The notes: generated by a model not told the origin, from the letters alone. DNA of 31,334 bases from Candidatus Sumerlaeota bacterium (GCA_016928995.1 JAFGJS010000073.1:1-31334); one strand, 5' to 3'. Counted from the stretch's first letter, positions 14,131 through 26,441 are shown. Program-made: numbers and translations.

Positions 14131-15282
14131 GTGTCCAGCCTGAGCCTTTACACGCACATCCCCTACTGTAAGTCGAAGTGCCCGTATTGCGACTTTTACT
14201 CCGGCCCAGCCGCGGAGCTCGGTGTAACGCAAGGAAAGTACTTCGACGCGCTCGCGGAAGAATTGCAGCTTGCTATCAACGCGTATGGTTTACGCGGACG
14301 CATGCTGCACACGCTCTATTTCGGCGGCGGCACGCCAGGATATTGCGATCCCGCGCTTTATCGCGCCTTCATTCAAGTTGTACGCGAATCCTTCGAACAC
14401 CCGGATCATGCGGAATGGACGCTGGAAATCAATCCCGGCGCCACGGATGAAAACCATATCGATGGCTTTATGCAACTCGGTATGAACCGCTTCAGCGTCG
14501 GAGTGCAGAGCTTCCAGCCGCGCTTGCTCAAGACGCTCGGTCGCATTCATCAAGCCGAGGACGCGCGCCGGATGTTAAGTCTGCTGCGGCCGCTGACGGA
14601 TGACGGGCGCCGCCTTTCGCTCGATCTGATCTTCGCTGTCGATTCGCAGACATTGGAGGAGTGGGAAGCCGACCTGGACGCGGCGCTGGAACACGCACCG
14701 GGGCATATCTCGCTCTACGGCCTCACCTATCACGAAGGCACGCCGTTTCATCGCCTGCGTGCGCAGGGCCACATGCGCGAAGCGAACGACGAATCGCAAT
14801 TGGCGATGTATGACCTGGCGCGCGCGAAACTCACGCAAGCGGGCTATGAGCATTATGAAATCTCCAACTTCGCCCGCCCCGGCTGCCAATGCGCGCATAA
14901 CCGGACATACTGGGAACATGGCGATTACCTCGGCCTCGGCGCATCGGCGCATTCATGCATCGATGGAAGGCGCTTTTGGAATCCAGCAGACGCGGAGCGC
15001 TGGAGCGGCGCCTTGCTCGCGGGAAAATTGCCGCATGAAGATGAAGAAACGCCCTCCGAACGTTCGCGGCTGGCCGAACGCGTCATGCTCGGTCTGCGCC
15101 TGCTCGAAGGCCTTTCGCTCAGCGCTTTCCGGCGCGAAACCGGAATCGACGCAGCGGAATACTTTGCCCCGGAGATCGCCAAACTGACCGAGCAAGGCTT
15201 GCTCGAATGCGTCAAGGACCGTCTGCGCCTGACGGCATCCGGGCTGCATCTCGCCGACACCGTCATGGCGGAATTTTTCTGA
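14131..15282 (+). CDS. hemW: HemW-type radical SAM protein (haem chaperone / CPO-like)
   Basis: A 383-residue radical SAM protein of the HemN/HemW group. The [4Fe-4S] motif CKSKCPYC (C13, C17, C20: CX3CX2C) follows YTHIPY at the very N-terminus, as in HemW rather than in true HemN, which has a longer N-terminal extension. Other blocks are LYFGGGTPG, EINPG, GMNRFSVGVQSFQPRLLKTLGRIH, DLIFAVDSQTLEEWEADL, HYEISNFARPG, HNRTYWEHGDYLGLGASAHS, and the C-terminal winged-helix-like HemN_C region (about 310-383). HemW binds haem and delivers it to enzymes; it is often misannotated as coproporphyrinogen III oxidase. The GTG start at 14131 has AAGGAAG at 14118-14124 with 6-base spacing. It stands alone. 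Confidence 0.92.
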   Translation: MSSLSLYTHIPYCKSKCPYCDFYSGPAAELGVTQGKYFDALAEELQLAINAYGLRGRMLHTLYFGGGTPGYCDPALYRAFIQVVRESFEHPDHAEWTLEINPGATDENHIDGFMQLGMNRFSVGVQSFQPRLLKTLGRIHQAEDARRMLSLLRPLTDDGRRLSLDLIFAVDSQTLEEWEADLDAALEHAPGHISLYGLTYHEGTPFHRLRAQGHMREANDESQLAMYDLARAKLTQAGYEHYEISNFARPGCQCAHNRTYWEHGDYLGLGASAHSCIDGRRFWNPADAERWSGALLAGKLPHEDEETPSERSRLAERVMLGLRLLEGLSLSAFRRETGIDAAEYFAPEIAKLTEQGLLECVKDRLRLTASGLHLADTVMAEFF

Positions 15283-15940: not shown

Positions 15941-16272
15941 GAAAAGGCATGTGCGAATACGAAATGCCCATGCCAAAATCCGTATATTCACAGTTTTCCG
16001 CGCAAGATTCAGCATTTTTCCTTGTAAGATTGGGGCATTTCATCTATTGTATCCGGCCATATGGATCGAAATGCCGTTAAGCTGATTTTCATAGGATTTT
16101 CTGTTTCATGCTCCATCGTTGATTGCTTAACGCCCAAGTATTAGCGATTCTCGATCGCTGCTTTGCATTTCGCTCCGCCATGCGATGTGTTGATTTGTGT
16201 CGATCTGCCATTGTCATCGCCTTCATCATGTAAGAAGAACGTGCCGCATCCAATTACACTCAGCACTGATTG
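15941..16272. other. Intergenic region without a recognised gene
   Basis: About 330 AT-rich bases. A small inverted repeat AGCGAT-TCTCG-ATCGCT occurs at 16143-16159, and a weak promoter-like pair TTGTAA/TATTGT (16022-16050, 17-bp spacing) lies about 220 bases ahead of the next start. Neither is convincing on its own. Confidence 0.4.
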
Positions 16273-18243
16273 ATGCAATCCATCGATAACGGGAGAACCG
16301 TGTTGAATCCGTTGAGCAAATCATCCAATCAAAATATTGGCGTATTGATCCGCGACCTGCTTTTTTTCATTCTGTTTTTTCTGTACATTTGCCTTGTGAT
16401 TGAAACGCGTTTTATCTACCACGGCAACGGCATGACCGTGCGGTGGCCGGTCTTTTACACCGGCTGGGAGTTTTTCCAGCAGTTCTTGTCCTATCCCGGC
16501 GGGCTTGTTGAATATGGCACCGCCTTGCTCTTTCAACTTTTCTATCTCTCCTGGGCCGGAGCGCTCATCCTGACTGTGCTGGCCTGGTTGATGTGCGCAT
16601 GCACCGGCGCGTATCTTGATGCGATCCATACGAAGTATTTCCGCTGGATCCGCTGGATCGCTCCGATGCTGATCCTCATCCTATACACGCAATACACATA
16701 TTATCTCATCACCATTGCCGCCGTGGCGGTCGCCTTGCTTTTCGTCCGCCTCTATCTCAAAATTGCCCCCAAAGACACGCCGTCCGGCATAATTATCCTT
16801 CTGATCCTTTCTGCGATTCTATATATCCTCGCTGGCGGCGCGTTTTACGCATTCGCCGCGCTCTGCGCGATTTACGAAGTCTTTTACCTGCGCCGATGGC
16901 GAACTGCTCTAGTCTGCCTATTGTCCGTCATCGCGATTCCATTTGTCGTTGGCGTGTTGATCTACGAAGTCAGAATAGCCGAAGCCTTCAACAGTTTATT
17001 GCCGCTCTCCTGGAAAATCTCCTGCACGGATCACCTTCCGCATAAGGCGCTTGTTGTGTCGTCGATTTATGCTGTCTGCATCTTTCTACCGGCGGCCGCG
17101 GCCATCCTGGGACTTTTCCATTTTTTCGCCTCAGGCTCAAGATCGCAACAAGATGCGCCAAACACATCTGATGATAAACCGGACCTTGCCACAAGCCGGT
17201 CCGGCGCAGGATTGCGCGCATGGTATACCGGCAAACCGGCGCTGAAGTGGCTTGCCGAGTCGCTGCTGTTATTCGCAGTCGCCGGAGCAACGATTTACTT
17301 TTCCACGGACAGTAGAATCAAAGCCTCATGCGCCGTGGATTACTATGCATTCAATCAGCAGTGGCCCGAAGTGCTCGAAACCGCCAAGGACTATCCGAAC
17401 AATTATTTTATCATCCATGCGGTTGACCGGGCCTTGTTTCACACGGACCGTCTGTTCGAGGACATGTTTGACACGCCACAGGATTTCGACTTTCTTTTCC
17501 TGACCGCCGAAGGCGTCCAGACCCACCACTGGCGCCGCGCCGGCATGTATATCGATCTGGGACTGCTCAACCTGGCGGAAAAATCGCTCTGTGAATCCCT
17601 GGAGCAACTCGGCGAACGTCCCGTCATTCTCCGGCAAATGGCGCTGATCAATCTGGCCAAAGGCAATTACGACGCTGCCAAAGTCTATCTGCACCGTCTG
17701 CAAAAAACGCTGTTCTTCTCCGCTTGGGCCGACGATTATCTCGCCCGGCTGAAAACGGATCCCGGCTTGTCGAATGACACGGAGATTACGCATCTGCGCC
17801 AGGTGATGATGGACAAGGATTATATTTACATCGCCTATAAAACCGAGAGCGTCGCCGCCGATTTTGAGCGGTTGCTGTTTGACCTGCTGGAAAAAAACAG
17901 GCACAACCGGATGGCCTTTGAGTATCTCATGGCGTATTACCTCCAAACCAAGCAACTGGACAAATTCGCTCAAAATCTCGGCCGGATGAATGACTTCAAT
18001 TACCCAAATCTTCCGCGCCAGTTTGAGGAAGCCATCCTGATCAGCCAGGACAAACTTGGCCAAAAAATCGACATCAATGGACGGATGATCAGCCCGGAAT
18101 CGATCAAGGCGTTCCATCGGTGCACTGATGCGCTCCGCCGATCCAACGGAGAACTGAAGCTGGCCTATAACGAGCTCGTTCACGACTATAAAAACACTTA
18201 TTTTTTCTACTATCTTTTTTATAATATCGATAGAGGAGCATAG
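16273..18243 (+). CDS. Polytopic membrane protein, DUF6057-like
   Basis: About 656 residues. The N-terminal half has about ten hydrophobic helices, beginning with LLFFILFFLYICLVI. It contains a periplasm-facing loop with FIYHGNGMTVRWPVFYTGWEFFQQFLSYPGGLVEY, a layout I associate with the DUF6057 family. From about residue 345 the protein is soluble and made of helical TPR-like pairs (ETAKDYPNNYFIIHAVDRALFH; RAGMYIDLGLLNLAEKSLCESL; ILRQMALINLAKGNYDAAKVYL). The function is not known. The next gene starts 3 bases past its stop, so they form an operon. The start is uncertain: ATG 16273 has no ribosome site, whereas GGGAG at 16291-16295 favours GTG 16300 or TTG 16303, which would lose about ten residues. 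A possible role in building or monitoring envelope polymers is speculation. Confidence 0.75.
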   Translation: MQSIDNGRTVLNPLSKSSNQNIGVLIRDLLFFILFFLYICLVIETRFIYHGNGMTVRWPVFYTGWEFFQQFLSYPGGLVEYGTALLFQLFYLSWAGALILTVLAWLMCACTGAYLDAIHTKYFRWIRWIAPMLILILYTQYTYYLITIAAVAVALLFVRLYLKIAPKDTPSGIIILLILSAILYILAGGAFYAFAALCAIYEVFYLRRWRTALVCLLSVIAIPFVVGVLIYEVRIAEAFNSLLPLSWKISCTDHLPHKALVVSSIYAVCIFLPAAAAILGLFHFFASGSRSQQDAPNTSDDKPDLATSRSGAGLRAWYTGKPALKWLAESLLLFAVAGATIYFSTDSRIKASCAVDYYAFNQQWPEVLETAKDYPNNYFIIHAVDRALFHTDRLFEDMFDTPQDFDFLFLTAEGVQTHHWRRAGMYIDLGLLNLAEKSLCESLEQLGERPVILRQMALINLAKGNYDAAKVYLHRLQKTLFFSAWADDYLARLKTDPGLSNDTEITHLRQVMMDKDYIYIAYKTESVAADFERLLFDLLEKNRHNRMAFEYLMAYYLQTKQLDKFAQNLGRMNDFNYPNLPRQFEEAILISQDKLGQKIDINGRMISPESIKAFHRCTDALRRSNGELKLAYNELVHDYKNTYFFYYLFYNIDRGA

Positions 18244-18246
18244 AAA

Positions 18247-19866
18247 ATGCCGAATCCTCCGGGAGTTATTCAATATAAACGCTTCGTCTTCGGTCTGCTG
18301 GCGGCGCTCGTGTTTTTTTCCTGCATCGCGGCCTACTCGCTCATCGGCGGCAAACCGGATATCAAGGAGCATGCCAGCATCGACCATCCAGCCAAGATTC
18401 ATCCTGATTATTCCGGGACGGTCATCCCTCCCAACATCGCGCCGTTGAATTTCATCGTGGACGAAGAAGGCGACGAGTATTTCGTGAAAATTCATTCCAA
18501 CCAAGGCGAACCAATCACCGTTTTCAGCAAAGACGCCTCGATTGAAATCCCTGCATCCCCTTGGCATGCGCTTCTCTCGGCGAACAAAGGCGAGCAGCTG
18601 CTTTTTGATGTTTACGCCCGCAAACAAGGCGGGCAATGGCGTCTGTTCTCCCCGATCGCCAATACGATCGCGCATGAGGAAATTGACGCGTTCCTGGCCT
18701 ACCGCAAGCTGCATCCCGGCTGCAACATGACCGATGAAAACGCCATTTTTCAGTATGATCTGGAAAATGCCCGCGAGTCCCTGGTGCTGAGCAACCGTTC
18801 TTTCGACGATGGCCAGGCGTGCATGAATTGCCATAACTTCCTGCATAACAACCCTGATAAAATGCTGATCCATTTCCGCAATATGCTCGCCGGGAAAAAG
18901 TCGATGTTGCTGATCGAAGACGGCAAGGCGACGGATATCGATTCCCGCACGCAATTCGGCTCGGCGCCCATGGGCCATTCCGCATGGCATCCCAGCGGCA
19001 AGCTGATCGTGTTCACGGTCTATAAAATCCAGCAGCTCTTCCACACCGCCCGGCTGGAAAGCCCCCGCGAGGGCATGGACACCGATTCGAATATGGGCTA
19101 TTATATATTCGAATCAAACACGCTGAAATCTTTTCCGGGCATTTCCGGCGAAGATCATTTTGAAACATTCCCCGCCTGGTCGCCGGACGGAAAATACTTA
19201 TACTTTTCCAGCGCGAAGAAGAGATGGCCCAACAATGACAACGCGCTTTATCCCGAAGAATACAATCAATCCAAGTACGACCTGGTTCGCATCAGCTACG
19301 ACATCGAAACCGACACATGGGGCGAGTTGGAAACCGTGCTCCCGTCCGCAGAAACAGGGCGCAGCGCGCTGCTGCCCAGAATCAGCCCGGACGGCCGCTG
19401 GCTGATGATCTGCATGTGCGGATACAGCTGCTGGCCCGGCTTTCAATCCGACAGCGACCTCTACCTGATCGATCTGGAGGAAGCGCAGCAAACCGGACAC
19501 TACGACTATCAGCCGCTGGCGCAGGCCAACAGCGCCGAGTCGGACTACTGGCATTGCTGGTCCAGCAACGGCCGCTGGTTTGTATTCAGCAGCAAACGCG
19601 AAAGCGGCATCTTCACTAAGCCGTACTTCAGTTATTTTGATGAAAATGGCGTGGCGCATAAACCTTTCGTATTGGTCCAAGACGATCCCGCATACTACGA
19701 CTCGCTGATCCGCGTGTATCAACTGCCGGAGCTAATCGTGAAGCCAATTCCGATCACCGGCGAGCGGCTAGCCAGCGTGCTGCGCTCCACATCCGATGTG
19801 GAAAGCCAGGCTCCCGCCGCCAAAGCGCCGCCAACCAGCGCTCCGTGGGGCTCATCGGATCGATAG
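18247..19866 (+). CDS. Membrane-anchored PD40/TolB-like beta-propeller with haem-binding CxxCH motif
   Basis: A 539-residue exported protein. An uncleaved anchor or signal segment (FVFGLLAALVFFSCIAAYSLI) is at the N-terminus, and no lipobox is obvious. Residues about 60-185 form an unassigned beta-rich domain. A c-type haem site follows: CMNCH with C192, C195 and H196, in QACMNCHNF. PD40/WD40-like repeats follow from ~225: SAWHPSGKLIVFT, FPAWSPDGKYLYFSS, LLPRISPDGRWLMIC, CWSSNGRWFVFSSKR. A second cysteine cluster CMCGYSC lies near 388-394. GAGGAG at 18233-18238 is well placed for ATG 18247, inside the end of the upstream gene, so translation is coupled. Known TolB-type propellers bind partners in the envelope; a propeller with a mono-haem module suggests an electron-transfer or sensing role, which is inference. 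Confidence 0.82.
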   Translation: MPNPPGVIQYKRFVFGLLAALVFFSCIAAYSLIGGKPDIKEHASIDHPAKIHPDYSGTVIPPNIAPLNFIVDEEGDEYFVKIHSNQGEPITVFSKDASIEIPASPWHALLSANKGEQLLFDVYARKQGGQWRLFSPIANTIAHEEIDAFLAYRKLHPGCNMTDENAIFQYDLENARESLVLSNRSFDDGQACMNCHNFLHNNPDKMLIHFRNMLAGKKSMLLIEDGKATDIDSRTQFGSAPMGHSAWHPSGKLIVFTVYKIQQLFHTARLESPREGMDTDSNMGYYIFESNTLKSFPGISGEDHFETFPAWSPDGKYLYFSSAKKRWPNNDNALYPEEYNQSKYDLVRISYDIETDTWGELETVLPSAETGRSALLPRISPDGRWLMICMCGYSCWPGFQSDSDLYLIDLEEAQQTGHYDYQPLAQANSAESDYWHCWSSNGRWFVFSSKRESGIFTKPYFSYFDENGVAHKPFVLVQDDPAYYDSLIRVYQLPELIVKPIPITGERLASVLRSTSDVESQAPAAKAPPTSAPWGSSDR

Positions 19867-20597: not shown

Positions 20598-20610
20598 AAA
20601 AAATTGGACT

Positions 20611-20623
20611 GGAGGAGGAGAGG
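20611..20623 (+). promoter_or_regulatory. Strong ribosome binding site that sets the GH128-like start
   Basis: GGAGGAGGAGAGG directly precedes ATG 20625. A longer reading frame opening at 20604 would place this run inside codons, so 20625 is preferred; it also gives a clean signal peptide. Confidence 0.75.
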
Positions 20624-20624
20624 A

Positions 20625-23600
20625 ATGACTACAAAGGTGAGTATGAAAGGGAGCGTTTCTGTATTTGTTCTGTTACTGACACCGTTTATCCTCAGTTTGG
20701 CGCAAGGCCAAGGTCTTCAAGTTTGGGACGGCGCGAATTATTCTGGAAGTTACACCCTGCAATGCACCGATTACACCTATTACACCACCGATGATCTCGG
20801 CGTTCTCGACAACGCCATCAGCTCGTTTAAATTAAAACAGGGGTGGGCATGCACGCTGGCGGTCAATGCCGATGGCACAGGCGTTGCCCAGAATTACGTC
20901 GCGCAGGACAATGATGTCAATATTGCCCAACTGCCGTCAGGTTTAGACGACCAAGTGTCCTTCGTCCGGGTCTATCCTTGGCGCACGACGACGAAAAAAG
21001 GTTGGTCCGGGAGCAAATGGGGCGCGACCATCCTGGAGTGCGACTGGAATTACGATTGGGACAATGTCGATGTTTCGTCTGAGGCAATTGAATATGTTCC
21101 GATGCGGCATAATCAGTGGTGGAACGCTTATTCTAACATCAATAATAAAACCGGCTCGACGCATGCGCTTGGTTTCAATGAGCCGGATTCCGCCGATCAG
21201 GCCGATATGACCGTGGCCACTGTTATCTCGGAATGGCCGAATCTCCTGGCCTCCGGTTTGCGGCTTGGATCGCCGGCCCCGACCGATGGCGGACTGTCCT
21301 GGCTCTACGACTTTTTCGATGAAGCCGACGCCGCCAACTTGCGCGTCGATATCGCCGCCTGCCATATGTACAAAGGCGGATGGGACGGCGCAACTTTACA
21401 CTCCTGGCTGCTGGATATTTATAATCAAACCGGCCGCCCGGTGTGGGTCACCGAGTGGAACAACGGCTGCAATTGGACCTGCTGCGAGCCGGAAGACGCG
21501 GAAGAGCAAGCGGACATCATTCAGGACTTCATCGACACGATGAACGCGGATGATTTCGTTGAGCGCTACGCGGTCTATAACTGGTGCGGACCTGACGGCA
21601 TCCGTCAATTGATCGAAGGCGACGGCACGATCAATCCCGCGGGCCAGGTTTACATCGACACTCCGGCGCCCGTGGCATACATCCAGGAGTCGTATTCCGG
21701 TCAGGACTTCGGACTGTCCTCTCCTTTCGTCGGCTTTTACGAATTCAACGGCGATACGACCGACTCCTCAGGCAGCGGAAATGACGGCACAGCCACGGGA
21801 AGTCCATCATACGTGACGGGCGTCAACGGCCAGGCGATCGACTTGGATGGATCGGATGATTTCGTGACATTGCCGCCTAGCGTAGCAGCAAGTGAAGACA
21901 TCACCATTGCTGTGTGGGTTAATTGGGACGGCGGCGGTGACAATCAGCGTATCTTTGACTTCGGCAACGGCACATCCGAGTATATGTTTCTGACTCCGGC
22001 TTCGAGCGGTCAGCTACGGTATGGCTTCAGGTTAAACGAATATCCATATCCGAGCTTATATGCATCGGCATTGGCGACCGGCGTCTGGACGCATGTCGCT
22101 GTGATTATGGAGGGCGACATCGGAACGCTCTATGTCAACGGGACAGCCGAGGATTCGATCACGATCACTGGCGATCCAATTGATATGTCGCCGCAAAACC
22201 TGTTTATCGGCGACAGTCAATGGTCGGCGGATCCTTTCTTCAACGGACGCATCGACGACTTCCGTATTTACAGCTACGCTCTTTCGAGCGCCGATATCGC
22301 GTCGCTGGCTGCAAACACGCCCCCGGCGATTCCATCGGCTCCGACAGGGCTTTCTGCCTCGGCGATTTCCCAATCTCAGATCAATCTGAGTTGGAATGCT
22401 TCGGCAGGTGCGACGAGTTATAATGTGAAGCGCGCGACCGCCAGCAGCGGACCTTACAGCACCGTAGTGCAAAGCTATTTGGGAACCAACTATAGCGATG
22501 CAACTTTGCTTGGCGGCACAACGTATTACTACGTGGTCCAAGCGCAAAACATCAGCGGCGTCTCGGCGGATTCATTGAAGGCCTCGGCGACAACTGATCC
22601 GGATACAACGGCGCCTGACGCTCCGGCGAACCTGACCACAAAAGCAGGCGACGGCTTTGTGCAACTGGATTGGGATAGCAATTTCAATCTCGACTTCGCC
22701 AGTTTTTCAGTTAAGCGTTCAACGTCTTCCGGCGGACCGTATGCGACCCTTGCGACGGGCTTGACTGACAGCGAATACACCGATGATACAACAGTGAATG
22801 GAACGACGTATTATTATGTCGCAACCACTATTGACGCATCTTCGAACGAATCGGACAACAGCGCAGAGGTCTCAGCATCTTTCTCTCCGCAGTTGGTCGC
22901 GTTTTATTCCTTCGAAGGCAATGCTCTTGATTCTTCCGGCAACGCGTTGAATGGAACAGTCAGCGGTGGAACTTCATACGTCACGGGTGTAAGCGGACAG
23001 GCAATCAGCCTGGATGGCGTTGATGGCTATGTCACTCTTCCGGCAGGCGTGGCGGACTCCTACGACATCACAATCGCCGCATGGGTGAATTGGGATGGCG
23101 GCAGCATATGGCAGCGTATTTTCGATTTTGGCAATGACACGTCAGAGTACATGTTCTTGACGCCAATTTCTTCCGGAAGCACGTTACGCTTCGGCATCAA
23201 GGACGGCGGCGTCGAGGAGCAGTTGAACGCCGCTCAATTCACAACAGGCATATGGCATCACGTTGCTGTGACTTTGGATGGGGACACCGGCGTGCTTTAT
23301 GTGGACGGGGTTCCGCAAGTCACAAATACCGTCACGATGAATCCAATCGACTTCACGCCTGTAGTCAATTATATCGGCAAGAGTCAATGGGCCGATCCGT
23401 ATCTCAGCGGAGCGATCGATGAAGTGCGTATTTACAACTACGCATTGACCGCAGCTGAAATCGCCGACCTGTATGGAGGATCGGTAAACTATCCTCCGGA
23501 ATTCTCAAGCGATCCAATAATCAGGGCGGACGCGACAGAAGATACAGCGTATAACGGCACGACGCTTTCAGGTGAAGCGACCGATCCGGACGGCGATTCG

Positions 23601-24368
23601 GTCACATACAGCAAAGCGAGCGGTCCGGACTGGCTCAACGTCGCCAGCAATGGCTCGCTCTCCGGCACGCCATCCAACGATGATGTCGGCGTCAATAGTT
23701 TCACGATCCAGGCCAGCGATGGAAACGGCGGGCTGGATTCCGCGACGCTGAACATCACCGTGGTTAATGTGAATGATGCGCCGACCTGGATTTCCGATCC
23801 GATCACAGAGGCTGGCGCGTCGGTCGACGAAGCATACAGTTCTTCGCTGGCGGATGACGCGAGCGACGTCGATGCGGGCGATACGTTGACATTCAGCAAA
23901 GTCAGCGGACCGTCCTGGCTCACAGTAGCCAGCGACGGCACATTGTCCGGAACGCCGAGTTCGTCCGATATCGGCGCGAATAGTTTCACGGTTCGTGTGA
24001 CGGACTCCGCATCAGCCAGCGCTGATGCGACCGTGGAAATCGAGGTCAGTGAAACGGCGTCAATGCATGTCAATTCGATTGCGTTGAGTATCGTCACTGC
24101 CAGCAGAAACAGGTACAAAGGACAGGCCGTCGTGACCATTCTCGACAACTCCGGCAATCCGGTTTCCGGCGCCGTGGTCACCGGCGCGTTCTCTGGCAGA
24201 TTCAACGAAACCCAATCGGCCACGACGAACAGTTCGGGAGTGGCGACGCTCACTACTGGCGCGTCGCAAAAACTCCCGATCTCCTTCACCTTCTGTGTCA
24301 CGAATGTTTCACATGCAGATTATGAGTATGACTCTTCCGCGAATGTCATCACGTGTAATTCGTACTAA
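20625..24368 (+). CDS. Secreted multidomain glycoside hydrolase, GH128-like, with LamG, FN3 and Ig-like domains
   Basis: A 1,247-residue secreted enzyme, probably an endo-beta-1,3-glucanase. After a signal peptide (MKGSVSVFVLLLTPFILSLAQG) there is a crystallin/Greek-key-like module (about 29-115: LQVWDGANYSGSYTL...). The catalytic barrel (about 115-350) has GFNEPD with acid/base E186 and WVTEWNNG with nucleophile E277, the 91-residue spacing expected of GH128 (Glyco_hydro_cc). Then come LamG/concanavalin-like domain 1 (about 364-562), two FN3 domains (568-755), LamG 2 (755-954), two Ig-like putative cadherin/He_PIG repeats ending in VNVNDAP (955-1142), and a C-terminal beta domain (1146-1247) with GNPVSGAVVTGAFSG. 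The two LamG domains are similar at DNA level, showing internal duplication. No anchor or sorting signal is recognised. A clear terminator follows. The substrate is inferred from the family. Confidence 0.87.
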   Translation: MTTKVSMKGSVSVFVLLLTPFILSLAQGQGLQVWDGANYSGSYTLQCTDYTYYTTDDLGVLDNAISSFKLKQGWACTLAVNADGTGVAQNYVAQDNDVNIAQLPSGLDDQVSFVRVYPWRTTTKKGWSGSKWGATILECDWNYDWDNVDVSSEAIEYVPMRHNQWWNAYSNINNKTGSTHALGFNEPDSADQADMTVATVISEWPNLLASGLRLGSPAPTDGGLSWLYDFFDEADAANLRVDIAACHMYKGGWDGATLHSWLLDIYNQTGRPVWVTEWNNGCNWTCCEPEDAEEQADIIQDFIDTMNADDFVERYAVYNWCGPDGIRQLIEGDGTINPAGQVYIDTPAPVAYIQESYSGQDFGLSSPFVGFYEFNGDTTDSSGSGNDGTATGSPSYVTGVNGQAIDLDGSDDFVTLPPSVAASEDITIAVWVNWDGGGDNQRIFDFGNGTSEYMFLTPASSGQLRYGFRLNEYPYPSLYASALATGVWTHVAVIMEGDIGTLYVNGTAEDSITITGDPIDMSPQNLFIGDSQWSADPFFNGRIDDFRIYSYALSSADIASLAANTPPAIPSAPTGLSASAISQSQINLSWNASAGATSYNVKRATASSGPYSTVVQSYLGTNYSDATLLGGTTYYYVVQAQNISGVSADSLKASATTDPDTTAPDAPANLTTKAGDGFVQLDWDSNFNLDFASFSVKRSTSSGGPYATLATGLTDSEYTDDTTVNGTTYYYVATTIDASSNESDNSAEVSASFSPQLVAFYSFEGNALDSSGNALNGTVSGGTSYVTGVSGQAISLDGVDGYVTLPAGVADSYDITIAAWVNWDGGSIWQRIFDFGNDTSEYMFLTPISSGSTLRFGIKDGGVEEQLNAAQFTTGIWHHVAVTLDGDTGVLYVDGVPQVTNTVTMNPIDFTPVVNYIGKSQWADPYLSGAIDEVRIYNYALTAAEIADLYGGSVNYPPEFSSDPIIRADATEDTAYNGTTLSGEATDPDGDSVTYSKASGPDWLNVASNGSLSGTPSNDDVGVNSFTIQASDGNGGLDSATLNITVVNVNDAPTWISDPITEAGASVDEAYSSSLADDASDVDAGDTLTFSKVSGPSWLTVASDGTLSGTPSSSDIGANSFTVRVTDSASASADATVEIEVSETASMHVNSIALSIVTASRNRYKGQAVVTILDNSGNPVSGAVVTGAFSGRFNETQSATTNSSGVATLTTGASQKLPISFTFCVTNVSHADYEYDSSANVITCNSY

Positions 24369-24422: not shown

Positions 24423-26429
24423 CTACTGCCGCGATAGGTCTGGCTCTGCCTGCTTCGTCTTCTCTCCGTACACTTTCACCTCATACAGCGTCGGCGGATA
24501 CCAGTTGTTGGGATTGTTATGGAGAACGGCGCGCTGAACATTGATCCGCACATAGCGTGCCTCAGACGCATCGGGCAAGATGTCGCTGCTGAAACCGTAG
24601 GTCTTGCTGACGACTGTGTCTTTCTCGTCAGTCCGGTCGAGCAACAGACGCCATTGATCGCCATCCGCGCTCCCCTCAATCGTGTATTTGTAATAGGCTT
24701 CGGAGCCTTTGTGGATGTGCCAGGAAATCTGCACGTTGCGCACCGTGCAGTTCTCCCCTAAATCCGTAGTCACACTGAAAGGCCAAGTCTTCTCATCGCT
24801 GCGGAAGAATGTGGCGTAATCGCCGTCAAACGCCATCGCTACTTCCTGGTCTTTGTTTCCAGGGATCGAAGAAGATGCTGGTTGATCCTGGGAAAGAAGC
24901 CTTCCCGCATCCAGTGGAATGATCCGATTTTTCGACGGAGAAAACAGCAGGTCCGGAAAGTAATCGCAAAAGGCGAAACCATCCTTGCACTGTATGGGCA
25001 GAACGACATTGCCGCTCGTGCCTTCGCCGCGAATCCAGCGATTGGCCATCATGACTGGAACGAGCTGCTCGCCGTGCCCGTAGTCGATAATTCCGCCGGA
25101 CTGCGCCGAAAATGTGGAATTATTCCCAATATACCGCAAATCGCTCCAGCGGCCGTCGAGCGATTTGGCGGACATATAACCCGCGCAACTCGGATACCAG
25201 CCGGCCGCCTGTGAGAAAACGAGATAATAGAATCCTCCGGTTTTGATGATGTGAGGCGCTTCACGGTATCCATCTTCCATGACCTTGTTCACAATGCCAG
25301 TCACGTCGGTGTAGTCGGTGTTCAATTTGAAGATGTAAAGCGTGGCGTTGGCGCCCTGTCCGTGGATGTTGGAAGCCGCCACAAGATAGCCCTGGTCATC
25401 GTCATCCACGAAAACGCTCATATCGCGAACCTGAACTCCCAAGGGATTATAAATATGATGCACGGTGAAACGCTCGCCGGGTTTCGCCGTGGCCACCATG
25501 GCTCGCCCGTGTCCATAGCTCGAACCAGAGCGTTCCCAGTGACACCACCACACAATCCGATTGTGGATTTTATCGTAAAACTGGCTTCCCGACTCGAACT
25601 TGAAGTCATCGAGATCCGGATGGCTGCTTTGATCCATCACGACTGGGCCGTCAGTCCAATTCTCCCCATCCAAGGAAGTCTTGACGATGAAATGCTTGAT
25701 CCTGCGGTCTTCGCGCACGGAGCTTAACCGGTAATATGTGTCGCCGGCCTTCAACGGCTCGCCAATCCTGGCCGAGGACTTGCCAGTCTCATTCGAGTAT
25801 TCCTGAACGTCGTCCGGCATGGCTATCGTTGCGACCTGCACAGGTTCTGATTTCTGAGTATACCCGTCGCGATAAGCCACCAGCCTGTATGTGTAAACGC
25901 CGTCTTCAAGGTTGTAATCCTTGAAGGATGCGCCATGCCCGGAATAAATCTTCGTGAAATCTCCGTCGTTTCCGTGCGCGCGATAGATTTCGATGGAATC
26001 GCTGGGATCGATTGCCGCCCACATGAGTGCGACATTATTGACCGGACCTTCGCGATCCGTCGCGAACAGCGAAGCGCTCAAGGCGATCCGTGGATTGTTG
26101 TCGGGCAGTGCTTCTCGTTTTTTCAGCGCGTCAATCGCCTGCTGCACACGAATCCGCGCCTGCTCCAGTTCTTCAGTCGTGGCTTCCTGTTTGTTCATCA
26201 ACTCGCGCGCGTCATGCATGACGAAACGAAGGTTATTCCAACTCTCGAAGCTGTAGTCTTTCTCAGTGAATTTTCCGCCCTCATCGATCTTCCCGATTAG
26301 TCTCTCCCTTGCGCCACTGGCTGAGGCGTTCTCCTGCTGTGCCGCCGCCATCATGCCGTCACCAAATGAACTGAACAGAAATATTCCAGCAGCAACAATC
26401 CCAACAGTTAATAAACTCTTCTCGCTCAT
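24423..26429 (-). CDS. Secreted GH43-like (exo-beta-1,3-galactanase type) enzyme with FIVAR and F5/8C domains
   Basis: A 668-residue exported protein. A signal peptide (to about 31) is followed by a FIVAR-like helical hairpin (about 42-105), an FN3-like domain (about 112-205), a five-bladed propeller (about 206-525) and a discoidin/F5/8C (CBM32-like) domain (about 535-665: TTDLGENCTVRNVQISW, ARYVRINVQ, LYEVKVYGE). The propeller resembles GH43 subfamily 24/34: VDDDDQGYLVAAS, TLYIFKLNTDYTDVTG, REAPHIIKTGGFYYLVFSQAAGWYP with probable general acid E390, then STFSAQSGG with Q443, and ANRWIRG. In characterised exo-beta-1,3-galactanases of this group the usual Asp base is absent and a Gln is proposed to take its role, which fits. 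ATG 26429 is chosen because AAGGAAG (26435-26441) precedes it by 5 bases; the GTG six bases upstream would overlap that site. Confidence 0.8.
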   Translation of the reverse strand: MSEKSLLTVGIVAAGIFLFSSFGDGMMAAAQQENASASGARERLIGKIDEGGKFTEKDYSFESWNNLRFVMHDARELMNKQEATTEELEQARIRVQQAIDALKKREALPDNNPRIALSASLFATDREGPVNNVALMWAAIDPSDSIEIYRAHGNDGDFTKIYSGHGASFKDYNLEDGVYTYRLVAYRDGYTQKSEPVQVATIAMPDDVQEYSNETGKSSARIGEPLKAGDTYYRLSSVREDRRIKHFIVKTSLDGENWTDGPVVMDQSSHPDLDDFKFESGSQFYDKIHNRIVWWCHWERSGSSYGHGRAMVATAKPGERFTVHHIYNPLGVQVRDMSVFVDDDDQGYLVAASNIHGQGANATLYIFKLNTDYTDVTGIVNKVMEDGYREAPHIIKTGGFYYLVFSQAAGWYPSCAGYMSAKSLDGRWSDLRYIGNNSTFSAQSGGIIDYGHGEQLVPVMMANRWIRGEGTSGNVVLPIQCKDGFAFCDYFPDLLFSPSKNRIIPLDAGRLLSQDQPASSSIPGNKDQEVAMAFDGDYATFFRSDEKTWPFSVTTDLGENCTVRNVQISWHIHKGSEAYYKYTIEGSADGDQWRLLLDRTDEKDTVVSKTYGFSSDILPDASEARYVRINVQRAVLHNNPNNWYPPTLYEVKVYGEKTKQAEPDLSRQ

Positions 26430-26434
26430 AATCA

Positions 26435-26441
26435 CTTCCTT
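26435..26441 (-). promoter_or_regulatory. Ribosome binding site of the GH43-like gene
   Basis: AAGGAAG on the minus strand lies 5 bases before ATG 26429. It decides that start over the in-frame GTG at 26433-26435. Confidence 0.7.

Follow-up and report, generated by a model that had tools for sequence, protein, structure and literature searches.

A recurrent gene pair joining a DUF6057 membrane protein to a β-propeller with a predicted haem c motif

The described systems closest to the locus analysed here include: (i) TolB, an exported six-bladed propeller of the PD40 type, (ii) cytochrome cd1 nitrite reductase, a β-propeller protein with c-type haem in which a separate helical cytochrome domain accompanies an eight-bladed propeller holding the d1 haem, with no known membrane TPR partner, (iii) hydrazine synthase (HZS) alpha, a c-haem protein of Planctomycetota that contains a six-bladed propeller, and (iv) GT-C enzymes, of which the STT3/AglB type has 11-13 transmembrane (TM) helices and which keep a catalytic acid in the first outer loop, directly behind TM1. 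The haem of HZS alpha is Tyr-ligated and resides in a domain of its own that follows the propeller (PMC12758564, PMC12607021), while the TMTC1-4 proteins of the GT-C class combine a membrane bundle with TPRs (PMC7801869). The DUF6057 family (PF19529) is given no function by Pfam, and the literature searched contained no paper mentioning DUF6057 and no description of its pairing with a haem propeller. The pair reported here, which is neither TolB nor hydrazine synthase, appears to be a bipartite bacterial envelope machine that has not been described.

The pair lies in a 31,334-nucleotide stretch of DNA (the window) from a Candidatus Sumerlaeota bacterium (GCA_016928995.1 JAFGJS010000073.1:1-31334). 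It consists of a DUF6057 membrane protein gene (D; 16270..18243, + strand) and a gene for an exported PD40/TolB-like six-bladed propeller of 539 aa with a CxxCH motif (P; 18247..19866, +). As the preliminary description had stated, the two genes are 3 nt apart (18244-18246, from stop to ATG) and the ribosome site of P, GAGGAG (18233..18238, +), is situated within D. The start candidates of D are TTG 16270 and ATG 16273 (657 aa), and GTG 16300 and TTG 16303 (about 646 aa); the start is uncertain, but GTG 16300 or TTG 16303 is likely to be used rather than ATG 16273, as the ribosome site (GGGAG) is better. Residues 1-18 of D are modelled with very low confidence by AF2. Upstream of the pair (14131-15279, +) is a HemW-like radical SAM haem chaperone, a protein absent from the repeated neighbour families listed for the pair.

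The two families are found together well beyond the window. In the own genome (G000), 11 matches to P and 11 DUF6057 genes over the cut-off are present, including copies cut by contig ends, and 11/11 are paired. A scan of a bacterial genome collection with the single window propeller returned no relatives; a profile of the own-genome P copies returned at least 526. From other genomes, 84 strong propellers in 78 loci were kept and were scored as paired when a DUF6057 gene lay no more than 400 nt away on that strand. Pairing was found for 76/84, with the order D then P in 66 and P then D in 10, and with a modal overlap of 4 nt for D-P. Of the eight unpaired propellers, some have a DUF6057 gene nearby on the opposite strand (L096, L104) and several are near contig ends. 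Within 20 genomes searched for both families, pairing holds for 51/54 propellers and for 52/56 DUF6057 genes. An independent search driven by DUF6057 covered 392 genomes from the Bacteroidota phylum of the Ignavibacteriae genome G075 and found ten long members, nine of which adjoin a propeller with CxxCH; the tenth has such a propeller about 5.6 kb away, beyond a SusC-SusD pair. The preliminary description had called a haem site next to a TolB-like propeller an odd combination and had named a lack of conserved pairing as one outcome that would refute its proposal; the pair is indeed odd, and the adjacency is widely conserved. Both the pairing and the CxxCH are found again in dozens of genomes that are unrelated to one another, so that they are not due to chance. 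D and P almost certainly form a functional pair.

The two genes have also diverged in step. The distance matrices of D and P correlate over 69 pairs with a Mantel r of 0.78, a value reached by 0/2000 permutations (best permutation 0.22); for nine own-genome pairs, where few distinct arrangements are possible, r is 0.95. The own-genome copies fall into three groups, and the window pair is closer to pairs of Phycisphaerae (L038, L039; about 50% identity in the propeller) than it is to its paralogues, and no other genome searched in the own class and phylum has a DUF6057 member over the cut-off. Thus, judged from distances between sequences and not from a rooted tree, the two-gene unit probably entered the genome on more than one occasion and was duplicated afterwards; the presence of 11 paired copies in a genome from a small phylum, together with the closeness of the window copy to those of planctomycetes, also suggests that acquisition and duplication were repeated and involved the intact unit. 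The P relatives kept are mostly from Planctomycetota (Phycisphaerae), with others from Armatimonadota, Verrucomicrobia, Acidobacteriota, Aminicenantes and Ignavibacteriae. The distribution of the pair is sparse and uneven: it occurs in none of 118 other genomes drawn evenly from the phylum of the planctomycete G062 and in 5/391 genomes, besides the seed, from the phylum of G075. No relatives were found in viral collections.

The AF2 model of P (74 homologues; mean pLDDT 89.2) has an N-terminal hydrophobic helix (residues 7-33; 18265..18345, +) that is a probable signal anchor, a β domain (about residues 40-143; 18364..18675, +) in which the motif VIPPNIAPLNF is near-invariant, and then a six-bladed propeller (about residues 145-499). 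P also matches PF07676 (E 3.5e-17). The P homologues of Bacteroidota start, as read by eye, with lipoprotein-like signals. The best fold match of P is TolB (Z 26, rmsd 3.2, 277 aligned), followed by HZS alpha (5c2v_A; Z 23.9 over 289 residues, 10% identity), which stands above all other non-TolB propellers listed (about 21 or less); cytochrome cd1 nitrite reductase (1aom, 1aof) is matched by Foldseek with E about 3e-7. PDB sequence searches gave weak PD40/TolB and TPR matches only. These fold matches would suit a P that is a diverged TolB or HZS-alpha-like protein, the pair then acting within one of those known systems. However, P scores 16.7 bits against the TIGR02800 equivalog cut-off of 343.15 and differs from TolB in its CxxCH, its hydrophobic or lipid anchor and its DUF6057 partner. 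The haem alpha-I motif of HZS alpha (His587) is beyond the matched propeller, residues 54-417 (PMC12758564). By contrast, the sole CxxCH of P (residues 192-196) is inside the propeller region, and an HZS identity for P was rejected on this haem position; a place within either known system is thus highly improbable. Nor do we know of any DUF6057 partner of HZS alpha.

The haem c attachment motif predicted in P is CMNCH (18820..18834, +), noted previously in this exported propeller and located behind its hydrophobic N-terminal helix. Its residues C192, C195 and H196 are invariant among 74 aligned homologues, and CxxCH is found in 84/84 strong P homologues from other genomes and in 11/11 own-genome copies; loss of the motif in close homologues, named in the preliminary description as another outcome that would refute its proposal, is thus not seen. 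CxxCH is not part of the patterns used to search for P (VIPPNIAP, RW..F.S.R). The own genome encodes a cytochrome c assembly protein (PF01578, E 7e-49), as do 23/24 other pair-bearing genomes; as this protein is common in bacteria, it adds little weight. P probably binds haem c covalently. The motif had been placed just before the propeller, a position that the model revises: CxxCH falls within strand 192-199 of blade 1, the propeller matches starting at about residue 145.

It is unusual for the CxxCH of a haem c site to lie in a β strand, and none of the candidate distal ligands of P is invariant (H248 is Arg in two own copies, H436 is 91% conserved and M206 86%). These features, along with a second cysteine cluster in many homologues, would fit a CxxCH that binds a metal (Zn/Cu) or forms a disulfide in a propeller of structural function, the pair forming a structural or scaffold complex. 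However, the His and the two Cys are invariant together, the proteins are exported, and 24/25 pair-bearing genomes checked have cytochrome c assembly genes; a metal or disulfide site is therefore unlikely. The second cluster, CMCGYSC (19411..19431, +), was recognised earlier near residues 388-394, and its cysteines are now assigned to C389, C391 and C395, which are conserved in 85%, 77% and 66% of the 74 homologues, respectively. The cluster is complete in 37/74 homologues and incomplete in all nine other own-genome copies that span it and, thus, is not required.

D is a full-length DUF6057 protein, matching PF19529 (E 2e-92) with 311 bits against a Pfam gathering cut-off of 29.8 and over profile positions 10-568 of 569, as its description as DUF6057-like had implied. 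Its AF2 model (59 homologues; mean pLDDT 89.2) has a membrane half (residues 18-345; 16321..17304, +) and a tail of helical repeats for which structure comparison gives TPR proteins as matches (residues 346-657; 17305..18240, +). The tail had been anticipated together with about ten membrane helices; the model and the positive-inside counts reduce the latter to nine. Across the 59 homologues, loops 2, 4, 6 and 8 are rich in basic residues (1.6-2.7 per 10 residues) and loops 1, 3, 5 and 7 are poor (0-0.7 per 10 residues). By the positive-inside rule, the modelled N-terminus is predicted to be inside and the TPR-like tail outside, on the same side as P.

The membrane half of D weakly resembles the oligosaccharyltransferases of STT3/AglB type (8agc_A, 7oci_F, 7e9s_A, 8b6l_I and 3waj; Z 7.6-8.9), which are the sole membrane proteins to match it among the matches listed. 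An acid directly follows TM1 (E45; Asp or Glu in 85% of the 59 homologues), a PGG motif (residues 76-78) is conserved, and the union of a membrane bundle with TPRs is shared with TMTC1-4. By contrast, D has nine TM helices and a haem-propeller partner. The top match (8agc_A) has Z 8.9 with rmsd 5.6 over 268 residues, a Z of about 9 that is not decisive given a chance range for helical proteins that reaches about 13. The 25 of 31 Pfam families listed as matches of the 59 homologues at E up to 0.5 include none of GT-C type. The modelled kinship of the membrane half with GT-C proteins is, thus, suggestive only, and a role of D as a glycosyltransferase or other GT-C-type transferase is possible but doubtful. 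Two long ORFs carry DUF6057 at their C-terminal end (L084:2979-6971 and L097:3045-6923); in L097, a MacB periplasmic domain precedes it, which suggests that DUF6057 is fused there to a protein of ABC-exporter type.

There is strong support for the pairing, for the haem motif and for a common extracytoplasmic side of D and P, features that fit a membrane complex at the envelope. The preliminary description had suggested that such a complex would sense or pass electrons; no redox partner was identified for D-P. D and P probably associate physically and form a two-subunit complex in the envelope. D would span the inner membrane nine times, with its membrane half in a GT-C layout, and would present the TPR arm outside, while the N-terminal anchor (a lipid anchor in Bacteroidota) would hold P at the outer face of the same membrane, docked on the TPR arm and bearing one covalent haem c in blade 1. 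The haem may supply a redox step or redox sensing, the reaction itself being a guess. A purely sensory role, in which the haem propeller detects redox state or a small molecule and signals via the TPR arm and membrane bundle of D, would account for the many copies per genome in varied contexts (11 in the own genome and nine D matches in G061), and a sigma-54 response regulator is near one own-genome pair. However, D is without a recognisable cytoplasmic output domain, its cytoplasmic loops are short except for residues 290-322, and no recurrent regulator neighbour was seen, all of which make a sensor improbable.

The neighbourhoods of D-P point more to glycan use (SusCD, GH28, GH106, GH2, GH43 and carbohydrate-binding modules) than to respiration. 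In two Bacteroidota genomes (G544 and G580, with 66 SusD genes in 5.1 Mb and 31 in 3.3 Mb, respectively), SusD is within 1.6 kb of 5/6 DUF6057 genes, an adjacency to SusCD polysaccharide utilisation loci that random placement within 2 kb would give with P about 2e-5, the limit having been set after the loci were seen. One of these loci reads SusC-SusD-D-P and includes GH28 and GH106 genes. The own genome has no SusD and its pairs have mixed neighbours (GH2 by one pair; PheT, FeoB, PALP and a YhdP-like protein elsewhere). In the window, a gene downstream of the pair (20604-24365, +) encodes a large protein that combines a glycosyl hydrolase core with laminin-G and Ig domains, and faces the gene of a GH43 + F5/8 C protein (24426-26435, -). 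As the own genome is without SusD and many of its pairs have neighbours that are housekeeping genes or unrelated, the carbohydrate link may be lineage-specific, and a tie of D-P to carbohydrate use or modification is put at slightly under an even chance. The literature searched contained no paper on SusD with TolB and cytochrome c, and none on PD40 with cytochrome c in planctomycetes.

The neighbourhoods also point to a chorismatase-like third gene more than to respiration. Its product has an FkbO-like (chorismatase-like) N part and a RidA part, with matches to TIGR04444 and FkbO that are below cut-offs or weak, and it is encoded near or adjoining the pair in about 17 loci of Planctomycetota, Armatimonadota, Bacteroidota and the own genome (e.g., L032:13997-15190 (-), L036:8782-9888, L059:3839-5023, L112:8577-9770, L141:4347-5588 and L142:8876-10063). 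This phylogenetic breadth would suit a system in which the pair and the third protein make, flip or attach a chorismate-derived aromatic at the envelope and the haem oxidises it. By contrast, the gene is near a minority of pairs and is single-copy in the own genome against 11 pairs, and distant relatives are found in genomes without D-P. A chorismate-derived product is, thus, quite unlikely.

The preferred reading is a duplicated, haem-bearing, two-subunit envelope complex with a GT-C-like D, which would serve extracellular carbohydrate use or modification; the module would be inherited and duplicated as a unit, with one pair per substrate. As a whole, this reading is tentative and somewhat below even likelihood. 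Its most specific form, in which D is a GT-C-like transferase whose TPR arm carries the haem c propeller, with transfer of a glycan or lipid-linked group coupled to redox and substrate-specific copies across phyla, is unlikely. If haem and transferase both held true, D-P would be a new kind, beyond the known haem c β-propeller proteins; haem in a carbohydrate-linked envelope system would be unexpected. The pair provides DUF6057, a Pfam family with no function, with a constant partner, a predicted topology and a testable cofactor, and the SusCD-adjacent pairs of Bacteroidota, where genetics is possible, place the question within reach of bench work.

Directly after one pair is a gene (L040:8617-11799) for a 1061-aa protein that combines MFS-like helices with a spermidine synthase domain and TPRs. 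Single chains of 670-880 aa with a CGNCH motif and weak similarity to P are near or beside the pair in four loci (L038:8781-11084, L049:8641-10938, L051:8642-13572 and L061:1-4656). The L038 chain, the sole one scanned, has a PD40 propeller and C-terminal TPRs; thus, propeller and TPR are also fused in one chain.
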